From positions 29,227 through 93,226 of the forward strand of contig JARVGJ010000005.1 of the NCBI GenBank assembly GCA_029762595.1: a stretch of 64,000 nt of DNA, read 5' to 3'. Shown one piece after another: positions 7,159 to 20,583 of the stretch; the first letter of the stretch is position 1; each line of letters opens with the position of its first letter. Source of the DNA: Methanolobus sp. Its GTDB lineage: Archaea; Halobacteriota; Methanosarcinia; Methanosarcinales; Methanosarcinaceae. The position numbers and the translations under genes were made by a program. The notes under the pieces were generated by a model, which was not told where the DNA came from, ran no database searches, and saw only the letters and a program-made list of their open reading frames with translations.

Positions 7159-7502
7159 GTACTTTTCTAAATTTGTTTGTAGATAAGCTGCTTTTGTCTT
7201 TTATGGTGACAATTGGACTTTTACGGAGACCAAAAACCAAATATTGAGTCAATATCAAGGACAAGATCAAATCTCAATCGATTTATATAAAAAAATGAAC
7301 ATGTCAAATATGTACACTTTTAATACTAAAAATTGCATACATTCCATGTAAAAGGTTCTATACAATCATTTTTATATCCTTATATGTGGTTAAATAAACA
7401 ATAGAAATGTTCAACAAATTCTGCTTAGAAGGAAAAAGAGTTTTTCATATCTTCAAGTAACTTGGATCATGATATGTTCATTGATGTACAAAAGGTGTAA
7501 AC

Positions 7503-16892: not shown

Positions 16893-17588
16893 TCATCCTA
16901 GTTTAATCCTCGCGGATTCCACAGCATTCTTACTGACTAGCTCAGCTGCAAATATGTCTGCCATGATCTCAAGCTCATTCTCGGAGCGGTTCCCTGTGAA
17001 GGTTATCATCGAGAGCTGCCTGAGGAGGGGTGTCCTGGTATTGTGGCGCAGGTGCCATGCTTCGTGAGCAAGTATCGCTTTAAGCTCGTTTTTTTCCATG
17101 ATCTCAAGCAGCCCCATGGACAGGAATATAGCCTTCCCCGAAGCGAAGGCCCTCGGGACTGCAGAATCGTAGTAATAGACCTCCCGGGTGCCTGGTGATT
17201 TCTCCATTTTTCCAAGGCTGTCAACAAAAGCCTGCGGCCATTCCATTATCTCTGCTATCGGCCTGGCACCATACCTTCTGATTAGGACAATGTAATAAAT
17301 CCTTGGCAGGAACAGGATAAGCACTGTTGAGATGATCGCATAAGCTGTGTATATCTCAATGCTGAGCATCCGGCTGCAATGCATGGAAGAAACTACCATC
17401 CCTATAGAGATGAGCATGCACAACTGTGCAGCAGTGAATGAGTATATACGGACCTTTGGGCCTTTTGCGCCAAGGTAGGACCCAAACAGCAGTAAGGCAA
17501 GCAAAACAGATGCTGATATGATCGGAAGGAGGCCGGAACCTGAGATGCAGGCCATATAACATCCAATCTCGTCCTGTATGGAAAACAT
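16893..17588 (-). CDS. membrane zinc metallopeptidase, M48/M56 (BlaR1-like) type
   Basis: About 231 residues. Three or four hydrophobic helices fill residues 20-105. A cytoplasmic peptidase domain follows, with HEAWH (residues about 177-181 of the track ORF) as the zinc motif and ENELEIMAD (about 205-213) as the block with the third ligand. This is the M48/M56 pattern of HtpX, BlaR1 and MecR1. There is no penicillin-binding sensor domain. It lies 48 bases downstream of a BlaI-type repressor gene, the classic partner of BlaR1, so its likely task is to cleave or inactivate that repressor on a signal; this is inference. The ATG at 17588 is better spaced from GGAG than the TTG at 17594. Confidence 0.8.
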   Translation of the reverse strand: MFSIQDEIGCYMACISGSGLLPIISASVLLALLLFGSYLGAKGPKVRIYSFTAAQLCMLISIGMVVSSMHCSRMLSIEIYTAYAIISTVLILFLPRIYYIVLIRRYGARPIAEIMEWPQAFVDSLGKMEKSPGTREVYYYDSAVPRAFASGKAIFLSMGLLEIMEKNELKAILAHEAWHLRHNTRTPLLRQLSMITFTGNRSENELEIMADIFAAELVSKNAVESARIKLG

Positions 17589-17642
17589 GATCAATGCTCC
17601 GGGAATAATGCCTCTTTCCTTTTGTGGGCCTTGTTTTGCTCC

Positions 17643-17999
17643 TTATTTCTTATTGTAGGTGTGGAAGTTCTCAATAGCAACCTTGCCGAATGTATCGACA
17701 AGGCTGTCCAGTACTTTCCGGGTAATGGTATTTGCCGTGCTGTCCATGGATTCGCTTGCATAATACAGGTACCTGACCCTATTTTCTTTCTTGTCCACGG
17801 TCCTTTTGGCATAACCTGCCTTTACCAGCCTGTCAAGTGTTCCGGCTACACTGGATAAAGGAATGCCTGTACTTTCGGTGATGTCAGGTGTTGTGCGCTC
17901 TCCTTCCTCCCAAAGGACCGTCATTATCCTGGCCTCGATCGGGCTGAAGAACTTGGTCAGGCCTTCATTTGAAATGTTTATCCGGTCAAGTTTAACCAT
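17643..17999 (-). CDS. BlaI/MecI/CopY-family transcriptional repressor
   Basis: A 118-residue Penicillinase_R family protein. Residues about 20-85 form the winged helix: LTKFFSPIEARIMTVLWEEG, then the recognition helix region TTPDITESTGIPLSSVAGTLDRLVKAGYAKR, and the wing with YLYYA. The C-terminal helix (about 90-118) should dimerise. Family members repress beta-lactamase or copper genes from palindromes of TACA and TGTA. Such a palindrome lies just before its own ATG, and three more lie before the divergent transporter operon. There is no Shine-Dalgarno and a TATA-like run sits about 25 bases upstream, so the mRNA is probably leaderless. Confidence 0.88.
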   Translation of the reverse strand: MVKLDRINISNEGLTKFFSPIEARIMTVLWEEGERTTPDITESTGIPLSSVAGTLDRLVKAGYAKRTVDKKENRVRYLYYASESMDSTANTITRKVLDSLVDTFGKVAIENFHTYNKK

Positions 18000-18003
18000 G
18001 TGT

Positions 18004-18018
18004 TTACAACAGGTGTAA
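18004..18018. promoter_or_regulatory. BlaI-type operator 1 (repressor promoter)
   Basis: TTACA-ACAGG-TGTAA is a perfect inverted repeat with a 5-base spacer, five bases upstream of the repressor ATG and just downstream of its TATA-like element (18021-18030). Binding here would give autoregulation. Confidence 0.65.
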
Positions 18019-18122
18019 GATAATATAAGCCTTATCGTTCCTTAGCTCTTGCGAGTTACCTTCTGGTGTTCAGGTTTTCCAGGCATCCGGCCTGTGTTAT
18101 GGAGTCCTGGCAGTGCTCATGG

Positions 18123-18141
18123 CTTTACACTCGGCGTAAAG
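18123..18141. promoter_or_regulatory. BlaI-type operator 2
   Basis: CTTTAC and GTAAAG form a perfect inverted repeat around a 7-base centre. Read as TACA-CTCGG-CGTA it differs from the other sites by one base. It is the most distant of three sites upstream of the permease operon. Confidence 0.55.
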
Positions 18142-18153
18142 TTAAAGTAGTTA

Positions 18154-18166
18154 TACATTTATTGTA
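18154..18166. promoter_or_regulatory. BlaI-type operator 3
   Basis: TACA-TTTAT-TGTA is a perfect inverted repeat with the same 5-base spacing, centred 28 bases from operator 2 and 24 bases from operator 4. Confidence 0.6.
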
Positions 18167-18177
18167 AAACAGTACTT

Positions 18178-18190
18178 TACACTTGATGTA
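18178..18190. promoter_or_regulatory. BlaI-type operator 4 next to the TATA box of the transporter operon
   Basis: TACA-CTTGA-TGTA is a perfect inverted repeat. Its last bases run into TATAATAA (18189-18196), the likely TATA box of the permease operon. A repressor bound here would hinder TBP/TFB. Confidence 0.6.
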
Positions 18191-18246
18191 TAATAAAAAT
18201 ACAATTGACTCCGGATGCTTCCATATACGGATCAAGAGGTTCATAT

Positions 18247-19422
18247 ATGCATTTACACTCTTTAGTCCTGAAAGACATATCCCGCAGAAAAACAAAACTC
18301 CTGGTAGCTGTACTTGGTGTGGTAGTGGCATCTGCGGCAATAGTGGCTGTGGTCACCACATTTTCCGCAGCAACCGGTAGTCTCTATGAGGAGTCCAATA
18401 ACTTCGGCGCAAATATCATAGTCAGGCCGGAAGTCAGGACCATTCCCCTTGTAACTGGCTCCACATCCATGGGTTCCCTGTTCACAGGAGAAAACTACAT
18501 CGAAGAGTCTGAGATCGCTAACATATACACTATCATGCACAGCTCAAAACTGTCAGTTGTGGCACCGAGGTTATACGGGGTTGCAGAGCTTGGCAACTCA
18601 TCGGTCGTCATAATGGGCGTTGATCCAGAACAGGAAAGGAATCTCAAGTCATGGTGGAATGTCAAGGGCAACTGGATATCCTCAGAAGGCCTAATGCATA
18701 CGGAAGTGATGGTCGGCTCGGACATAGCCACACCCATGGGACTTACGGAAGGGTCCTTCATCACTCTGCGCAATGGTAATACCTCCATTGATGCCCGGGT
18801 GACCGGAGTGATAGAGAGCACAGGCGGCAGTGAGGATGCATATTTAATTCTCCCTCTTGTCGCCTCCCAGCATCTGCTTGGCAGGGAGGGGAAGGTAAGC
18901 AGCCTGGAGGTCAGGGCCCTGTGCAATACCTGTCCGGTAGAAGAGATCAGCATGGAGATCGAGGAGAAATTCCCCGGGCTGGAAGCCAGGTCCATGAGCC
19001 AGATAGTCCGCAATGAGCTGGCTATGGTCGAACACACCCGTTCTTCTGCAATGGCAGTATCGATCATCACCCTCCTGGTGAGTACATTGACGGTGGCTTC
19101 CACCATGCTTGCCTCAGTTAATGAGAAGTTGAAGGAAATTGGCATCATGCGTGCAGTGGGCGCGAGCGATTTCCAGGTAGTATCCATGCTTTTCTTTGAA
19201 GGTGCCATAATAGGCGCAGTGGGCGGCATTATCGGCTTTATAGTGGGGACCATTGCTTCATCAATTGCAGCCCCTCTGCTATTCCAGGCAACACCTTCGC
19301 CAATGTGGGAGATCCTGCTTCCAGTGACCGGCATATGTGTCCTCACCGGCATGCTGGCATCCGTCCTGCCTGCAAAAAAGGCTCTAGGTATCGATCCTGC
19401 GGAGGTGTTGAGAAGTGTCTGA
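18247..19422 (+). CDS. FtsX/MacB-type ABC transporter permease
   Basis: A protein of about 391 residues with the MacB/FtsX layout: one N-terminal helix (residues about 17-40, TKLLVAVLGVVVASAAIVAVV), a large outer domain (about 45-260) and three C-terminal helices. The last part carries MLASVNEKLKEIGIMRAVGAS, the typical FtsX permease motif. It should work as a dimer with the next gene's ATPase, moving or pulling on something outside the membrane rather than classical import. The track starts 14 codons earlier; GAGGT six bases before the ATG at 18247 decides the start. The gene ends inside the start of the ATPase gene. Three BlaI-type operators control it, by inference. Confidence 0.88.
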   Translation: MHLHSLVLKDISRRKTKLLVAVLGVVVASAAIVAVVTTFSAATGSLYEESNNFGANIIVRPEVRTIPLVTGSTSMGSLFTGENYIEESEIANIYTIMHSSKLSVVAPRLYGVAELGNSSVVIMGVDPEQERNLKSWWNVKGNWISSEGLMHTEVMVGSDIATPMGLTEGSFITLRNGNTSIDARVTGVIESTGGSEDAYLILPLVASQHLLGREGKVSSLEVRALCNTCPVEEISMEIEEKFPGLEARSMSQIVRNELAMVEHTRSSAMAVSIITLLVSTLTVASTMLASVNEKLKEIGIMRAVGASDFQVVSMLFFEGAIIGAVGGIIGFIVGTIASSIAAPLLFQATPSPMWEILLPVTGICVLTGMLASVLPAKKALGIDPAEVLRSV

Positions 19423-20083
19423 CGATAAAATGATGATTCGTGTCCAGGGTGCAGCTAAAAGGTATCTGGTGGGCACTGTTGAGGTGGAAGTCCTGCGTGA
19501 CATCAATATGGGCATAAGAGAAGGCGAATTCGTCTCCGTGATGGGCCAGTCAGGCTCAGGGAAGACCACCCTGATGAACCTGATCGGGATGCTTGACAGC
19601 CCCAGCGATGGCAACATCTTCATCGATGGTGTCGATATCACCGGCAAGTCACAGAAAGAGCTGGTGGGGTTGAGGCGCAGGACAGTTGGTTTCGTGTTCC
19701 AGCAGTTCCATCTCATACCCTCCCTCACAGCCTATGAGAACGTCGCCCTTCCTCTGGTATTTGCGGGAGAGAAGGATCAAAGAGCTGTTACCGATGCTCT
19801 GGAAAGGGTAGGGCTGTCCCACCGCCGGGAACACAAGCCTGCGGAGCTGAGCGGGGGAGAACAGCAAAGGGTAGCTATTGCGCGTGCAATTGTAATGAAG
19901 CCAAAGATATTGCTTGCTGATGAGCCCACCGGGGCACTGGATGCAACCACAGGTTCAATGATCATCTCCCTGTTAAGGTCCATGGCAGGGGAGATGACAG
20001 TGGTGATGGTCACTCACAACAGGGAACTTGCACTGCATTCTGACCGGATAGTGAATTTAAAGGATGGTAACATCGCGGAGTAA
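19415..20083 (+). CDS. ABC transporter ATP-binding protein (MacB/LolD type)
   Basis: A 222-residue ATPase. Walker A is GQSGSGKTT, the Q-loop lies in VFQQFHLIPSLTAYENVALPL, the signature is LSGGEQQR, and Walker B is ILLADEPTGALD followed by the switch His in VTHNREL. The Q-loop and DEPTGALD pattern are those of LolD/MacB ATPases that partner FtsX-like permeases. The start is GTG at 19415, eight bases inside the permease end, behind GGAGGTG. Confidence 0.93.
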   Translation: MSDDKMMIRVQGAAKRYLVGTVEVEVLRDINMGIREGEFVSVMGQSGSGKTTLMNLIGMLDSPSDGNIFIDGVDITGKSQKELVGLRRRTVGFVFQQFHLIPSLTAYENVALPLVFAGEKDQRAVTDALERVGLSHRREHKPAELSGGEQQRVAIARAIVMKPKILLADEPTGALDATTGSMIISLLRSMAGEMTVVMVTHNRELALHSDRIVNLKDGNIAE

Positions 20084-20088
20084 ATAAA

Positions 20089-20583
20089 ATGACTTTTAAG
20101 ATAATAGCTGTTGTTTTATCAGTGCTCGTAATATCTGTACTTGCACTTGGATGTACGGGAAATGATCCTGCTGCATTGAAAGACTCTGCAAAGCCTGTAG
20201 AGGCCACATGGATAAACCCCCTGTCAACAGATCAAACAGTCTCCATACCAGTTGAAGCAGTGAACATGCATACCAATGTACACTTTAAAGTGAACACAGA
20301 CATCGGAGAGCTTGTTTTAATGGCATACATGTTTGATGATGATATATTCATCAGGTCCAATGTTTGCCCTCCCTGCGGCTCCATCGGATTTGCTCTCGAT
20401 GATAGCATACTCATTTGTGATGCATGTGCCAGTACATTTGATGCTTCCACAGGTAAGGGTATTGGAGGAGCCTGTGTTGCATACCCTAAGGAAAGCGTTC
20501 CATATACTGTTTCAGGGGGTACTATTATCATGAATCTTGAAGACGTAATGAGTGCACACCAGGAATCCCTAAGGAGAAAGTAA
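20089..20583 (+). CDS. FtrD-like (DUF2318) metal-binding lipoprotein
   Basis: A 164-residue lipoprotein with signal box LALGC (Cys22). The mature domain carries two Cys pairs and a further Cys in the DUF2318/FtrD arrangement: CPPCGSIGF (Cys93, Cys96), CDACASTFD (Cys110, Cys113) and GGACVAYP (Cys129). FtrD belongs to bacterial ferrous iron uptake systems, and related clusters pair this domain with FtsX-type permeases and an ATPase, as in the Campylobacter P19 region as I recall it. Here it sits six bases after the ATPase and closes the three-gene operon. A role in iron or copper handling outside the membrane is likely but not shown. Confidence 0.82.
   Translation: MTFKIIAVVLSVLVISVLALGCTGNDPAALKDSAKPVEATWINPLSTDQTVSIPVEAVNMHTNVHFKVNTDIGELVLMAYMFDDDIFIRSNVCPPCGSIGFALDDSILICDACASTFDASTGKGIGGACVAYPKESVPYTVSGGTIIMNLEDVMSAHQESLRRK

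Follow-up and report, generated by a model that had tools for sequence, protein, structure and literature searches.

Exploring the spacer between a small repressor gene and a divergent FtsX/ABC/FtrD operon in a 64,000-nucleotide stretch of Methanolobus DNA (the window), we asked whether the TACA-N5-TGTA palindromes clustered there are operators, which protein reads them and how they might be released. Exact copies of TACA-N5-TGTA are found at 18005, 18154 and 18178 and a one-mismatch copy at 18126; all four sites that an earlier note on this DNA had listed are present, its position 18004 being the T that precedes the first TACA. Three exact copies occurred in 0 of 20,000 composition-preserving shuffles of the spacer. 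The 17-mer described below matches with at most one mismatch at 40 places in the 2.43-Mb genome (35 for the reversed control), 4 of them inside these 190 bases, and the number of such clusters expected in the genome is about 2e-7. On these shuffles, counts and expectation we rejected chance clustering, as the earlier note had done. Two further exact copies lie in the window, one at 7338, which the note had given as a chance copy, and one at 7487, which it missed. Neither was admitted to the operator set, the former falling below the 11-of-12 arm threshold and the latter having A instead of a pyrimidine at position 8.

Palindromes at both promoters of the spacer

The gene of the 118-aa repressor (17643..17999, minus strand) has the TATA box CTTATATTA (18021..18029, minus strand, written on the repressor strand), recognized in aligned promoters of 24 loci. 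Between this box and the ATG lies the putative, autoregulatory operator O1 (TTTACAACAGGTGTAAG; 18003..18019; unstranded, as are the other operators). The putative operators O2 (TTTACACTCGGCGTAAA; 18124..18140), O3 (TATACATTTATTGTAAA; 18152..18168; 28 bp from O2) and O4 (TTTACACTTGATGTATA; 18176..18192; 24 bp from O3, 25 bp in other three-site loci) precede an operon on the plus strand encoding an FtsX/MacB-type ABC permease (18247..19422; Pfam FtsX 8.2e-19, MacB_PCD 5.1e-13), an ABC ATPase (19415..20083; ABC_tran 6.1e-37) and an FtrD-like (DUF2318) cysteine-rich lipoprotein (20089..20583; FtrD-like 4.5e-9). Promoter alignment yields a candidate TATA-like element for this operon (TTAAAGTA; 18142..18149, plus strand), the assignment of which is uncertain. 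The placement described in the earlier note was confirmed, with one site between the TATA box and the ATG of the repressor and another abutting the TATA-like element of the operon.

Our comparative set comprised 24 loci that carry a repressor orthologue; orthologues from one family are non-independent events. In 24/24 loci a site directly follows the repressor TATA box and ends 2-4 bases before the ATG. Two or three sites were present in each of the 20 permease promoters shown, all of which have a site aligned with O2; the step from the first to the second is 28 bp (27 in L007, 29 in L035), and that to a third site, in promoters that have one, is 25 bp (24 bp in the window). Aligning the orthologous spacers, as the earlier note had proposed, thus revealed that the N5 palindromes are kept upstream of both transcription units. 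Their loss in relatives that keep both operons, which the note had named as the outcome that would count against it, is the opposite of what we found. In L011-L013 and L018, TTRATATA occupies the candidate TATA position and one site precedes the ATG; the TATA-site-ATG order of the repressor promoter recurs at the permease in these four loci, suggesting start-site occlusion.

In a sister genus, eight genomes retain the permease operon, at 65-67% identity, and have neither the repressor nor the adjoining M48 protease. In 8/8 of these, no operator was found in the 400 bp upstream of the permease, the best match reaching 9/12 arm bases. Another conserved element, GGCCATATTTACC followed by a ATTNATGTA stretch, lies ~30-70 bp upstream of the permease start in this genus (L085-L092) and is perhaps the site of a different regulator.

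The 79 sites of the comparative set give a 17-bp operator consensus, TTTACR-N-Y-N-R-N-YGTAAA, in which the arms TTTAC/GTAAA are nearly fixed and position 6 is A or G. Position 8 is a pyrimidine and position 10 a purine in 79/79 sites, indicating that the N5 centre is N-Y-N-R-N and not five free bases. Of 52 exact Methanoperedens sites, 29 fit Y8/R10 (13 expected). Among centres of 0 to 11 bases tested, only 5 is represented by TACA/TGTA palindromes in the window spacer; a 2-base centre is absent from it, and the orthologue loci likewise have 5. In one Methanoperedens genome 18 of 26 TTTACR/YGTAAA pairs are spaced by exactly 5 bases, the only spacing enriched genome-wide. The N5 spacing singled out by the earlier note is real and general, and its statement that CopY sites read TACA-N2-TGTA agrees with the published operators (PMC7253601).

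Motif excess and the genes marked by sites

Counting the exact motif against its reversed control in 238 genomes of the class, we found an excess in 34/34 genomes of the Methanoperedens family (410 matches vs 73; mean per genome 12.1 vs 2.2) and in 5/6 repressor-bearing genomes of a second family; G129 carries the repressor with zero exact matches. Groups without the repressor showed no excess over the control (16 vs 22, 4 vs 11 and 7 vs 15). The label Methanoperedens comes from named records, those underlying loci L014, L016 and L017, and its use for the whole family f5 we infer from repressor presence and motif counts. Motif excess tracks the repressor across the class, a link between repressor and motif by co-occurrence. 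In the window's own genome no large regulon was found (the 40 places and 35 control matches given above), and on the ccmE contig (C13) no listed motif match lies within 3 kb of ccmE. With the motif otherwise at background, the regulon looks local in this organism.

In four Methanoperedens genomes, sites precede ccmE-ccmF-ccmH (paired in most), CcdA/DsbD_TM, secreted thioredoxins, an AsnC-TRASH regulator, MacB-type ABC pumps, an operon of HMA, NikR-like and P1B-ATPase genes, and the repressor itself; they are often paired, 24-29 bp apart. Across 13 further stretches from 8 other genomes in two families, sites were again found at ccmE, MacB, CcdA, AsnC-TRASH and CcmF, and in two second-family genomes an FtsX-ABC-FtrD operon with 48-57% identity to that of the window has sites 28-29 bp apart. 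The common theme of the site-marked genes is the extracytoplasmic handling of metals, thiols and haem proteins. For methane oxidation Methanoperedens relies on many multihaem cytochromes. As to copper as the sole signal, the indications are mixed: the motif CPCALAISTP of the P1B ATPase is one that we take to be zinc/cadmium-like, and Met/Cys-rich secreted proteins together with a cupredoxin near sites suggest copper. Two small exported Met/Cys/His-rich proteins near Methanoperedens sites (L130:3731-4063 and L152:3236-3601), neither with a Pfam family above cut-off, are copper-binding candidates.

Together, these comparisons of sequence strongly support the identity of the operators and their regulon, and the four palindromes are very probably operators of the neighboring repressor. 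The part of the earlier note's interpretation that took them for such operators held, as they are kept upstream of both units and absent where the repressor is absent.

A repressor and an M48 membrane protease as a candidate pair

The repressor is predicted to consist of a winged helix and one long C-terminal helix and has no Cys, either in the window protein or among the invariant columns of a 24-sequence alignment. Its top Pfam match is Penicillinase_R (PF03965; 3.7e-8, 34.2 bits, cut-off 22.6), and TrmB (1.9e-7, 31.2 bits, cut-off 25.6) and MarR (1.8e-5, 25.0 bits, cut-off 24.6) also pass. In the AlphaFold monomer model (pLDDT 80.7) a single C-terminal helix spans residues 85-116 (block pLDDT 65-90). 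In a fold search, MarR-like proteins or archaeal winged helices make up most of the nearest solved structures, and MecI comes at rank 17 (TM-score 0.52).

Adjoining the repressor is the gene of a 233-aa M48-type membrane metallopeptidase (16893..17588, minus strand; Pfam Peptidase_M48 8.6e-10), a candidate sensor/antirepressor by Pfam, alignment, gene order and hydropathy. The motifs HExxH (HEAWH; H176-E177-x-x-H180) and ExxxD (E208-x-x-x-D212), as well as C11, C15 and C72, are invariant in 21 sequences; no penicillin-binding sensor domain or M56 match was detected by Pfam. Hydropathy and charge suggest three transmembrane helices; the protease domain would lie inside, and the N-terminus and the loop carrying C72 outside. 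The structure model (pLDDT 62) is too low in confidence for fold comparison. BlaR1 has the same HExxH and ExxxD motifs and a protease active site facing the cytoplasm, and among membrane proteins of known structure its nearest relatives are Ste24p and ZMPSTE24 (PMC9834060). The M48 gene follows the repressor in every listed locus except L040, where the repressor is broken, and L041, a 1.7-kb fragment; the two are also adjacent in Methanoperedens, whose loci have no FtsX operon close by. Since the pair persists in these loci, repressor and protease (16893-17999) may have travelled as a unit. The broken repressor gene of L040 (G075:C10:735630-735905) carries three stop codons, and no permease operon was found in its genome (G075), a possible natural loss.

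We propose that the repressor would bind between the TATA box and the start of its own promoter and occupy two or three sites, in steps of 28 and ~25 bp, over the divergent FtsX/ABC/FtrD promoter, where it would block assembly of the archaeal transcription machinery; repression itself we infer from the position of the sites. The FtsX/ABC/FtrD operon would belong to a larger group of genes that handle metals and thiols outside the cytoplasm and mature cytochrome c. For the M48 protease, whose Cys are predicted to lie outside and whose active site is predicted to lie inside, we consider it probable that it senses a metal or thiol signal and that its proteolytic activity inactivates the repressor, in the way that BlaR1 acts on BlaI; gene linkage and anatomy point to both signal and proteolysis. 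Proteolytic derepression is suggested, tentatively, by a repressor without conserved Cys beside an M48 protein with invariant Cys and a BlaR1-like layout. Taken as a whole, an explanation by operators, repression, a metal/thiol/cytochrome regulon and proteolytic derepression through M48 appears likely to us. That an M48-type archaeal sensor-protease/repressor pair derepresses a regulon of metal, thiol and cytochrome c maturation genes, in wide form in Methanoperedens, we put forward with some reserve.

It is conceivable, although somewhat unlikely, that the repressor itself senses the signal as a MarR/TrmB-like ligand or redox sensor and that M48 is simply a linked membrane quality-control protease. 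The TrmB and MarR matches above cut-off and the mostly MarR-like structural neighbors are in keeping with this, and a MarR-type dimer would suit half-site centres about one helical turn apart. However, the lack of Cys in the window repressor and in the invariant columns, the persistence of M48 beside the repressor in loci that lack the FtsX operon and the three invariant Cys of the protease argue against it.

The earlier note had implied that a true BlaI/CopY-type dimer reads the TACA/TGTA half-sites through a stretched interface. Penicillinase_R is indeed the top Pfam match, and the half-sites equal those of BlaI and CopY (PMC7253601). However, constraint here extends to the outer TTT/AAA and the central Y/R, which sets these sites apart from the published CopY consensus, and one C-terminal helix is predicted for the repressor. 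MecI and BlaI have a multi-helix C-terminal dimerization domain. With three Pfam families passing and mostly MarR-like fold neighbors besides, a changed BlaI-type dimer geometry was not borne out and we consider it unlikely; the repressor may simply not be a BlaI-type dimer, and its BlaI/CopY label is weak in view of the differences in operator spacing, protease family and predicted C-terminal fold.

That another transcription factor co-occurring with the repressor binds the palindromes, a reading left room by the comparative basis of the repressor-operator link, is highly improbable, given that the only site shared by all loci stands before the repressor start, that repressor-less groups have no motif excess and that, in another family, a paralogue with 34% identity likewise carries a site at its start.

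Relation to known systems

The proposed repressor-protease pair resembles BlaI/BlaR1 at the level of design. As in BlaI/BlaR1 and MecI/MecR1 of Staphylococcus aureus, the gene of a small winged-helix repressor with TACA/TGTA half-sites adjoins that of a membrane metalloprotease carrying HExxH and ExxxD, and there are several operators per promoter. Unlike in those systems, the centre is 5 bases and not 2 within a constrained 17-bp operator, the protease is M48 and not M56 and has no penicillin-binding sensor domain, and the promoters are archaeal, with metal/cytochrome targets in place of beta-lactam resistance. We did not class it with BlaI/BlaR1 because operator spacing and protease family do not match and the dimerization domain is doubtful. 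The copper repressors CopY/CopR (RNYKACANNTGTMRNY) share the TACA/TGTA palindrome, two operators per promoter and control of metal export, but differ in spacing and in having a C-terminal Cys-X-Cys metal motif, absent from the Cys-less window repressor, and no protease partner. Closest by profile and fold search are compact winged-helix archaeal regulators of MarR/TrmB type (AF2008, 1sfx; Methanosarcina mazei 3r0a), for which we know of no M48 partner or such operator. In Campylobacter fetABCDEF a DUF2318/FtrD domain protein is likewise encoded with ABC permease and ATPase genes, whereas the window operon has no FetM/FetP or thioredoxins; the C. jejuni fet cluster has been linked to iron limitation (PMC10783030).

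We found no prior description of this repressor/operator/M48 system in the literature. It offers a short operator, together with a candidate for the regulator of metal handling and cytochrome c maturation in methane-oxidizing or methane-making archaea; if true, the BlaI/BlaR1 logic, in which a membrane protease frees the repressor, would extend to archaea with a different protease family and signal.

BlaR1 cleaves BlaI at Asn101-Phe102, and N111-F112 is invariant in 24/24 repressors. As a BlaI-like cleavage site it is doubtful, lying too close to the C-terminus of the 118-aa protein for a cut that removes a dimerization domain, and its alignment to the BlaI site is ambiguous. BLASTP, with a provisional BlaI query sequence, pairs BlaI SLVLNF with repressor SLVDTF and not with N111-F112, and because the cleavage region aligns elsewhere we keep the N-F pair as a remark only. 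A second repressor paralogue with its own site is found at L167:2997-3431 (G128) and at G134:C50:1702-2064; the G128 copy is the one 34% identical to the repressor, and it is divergent to a gene set of thioredoxin, PCYCGC and CcdA.
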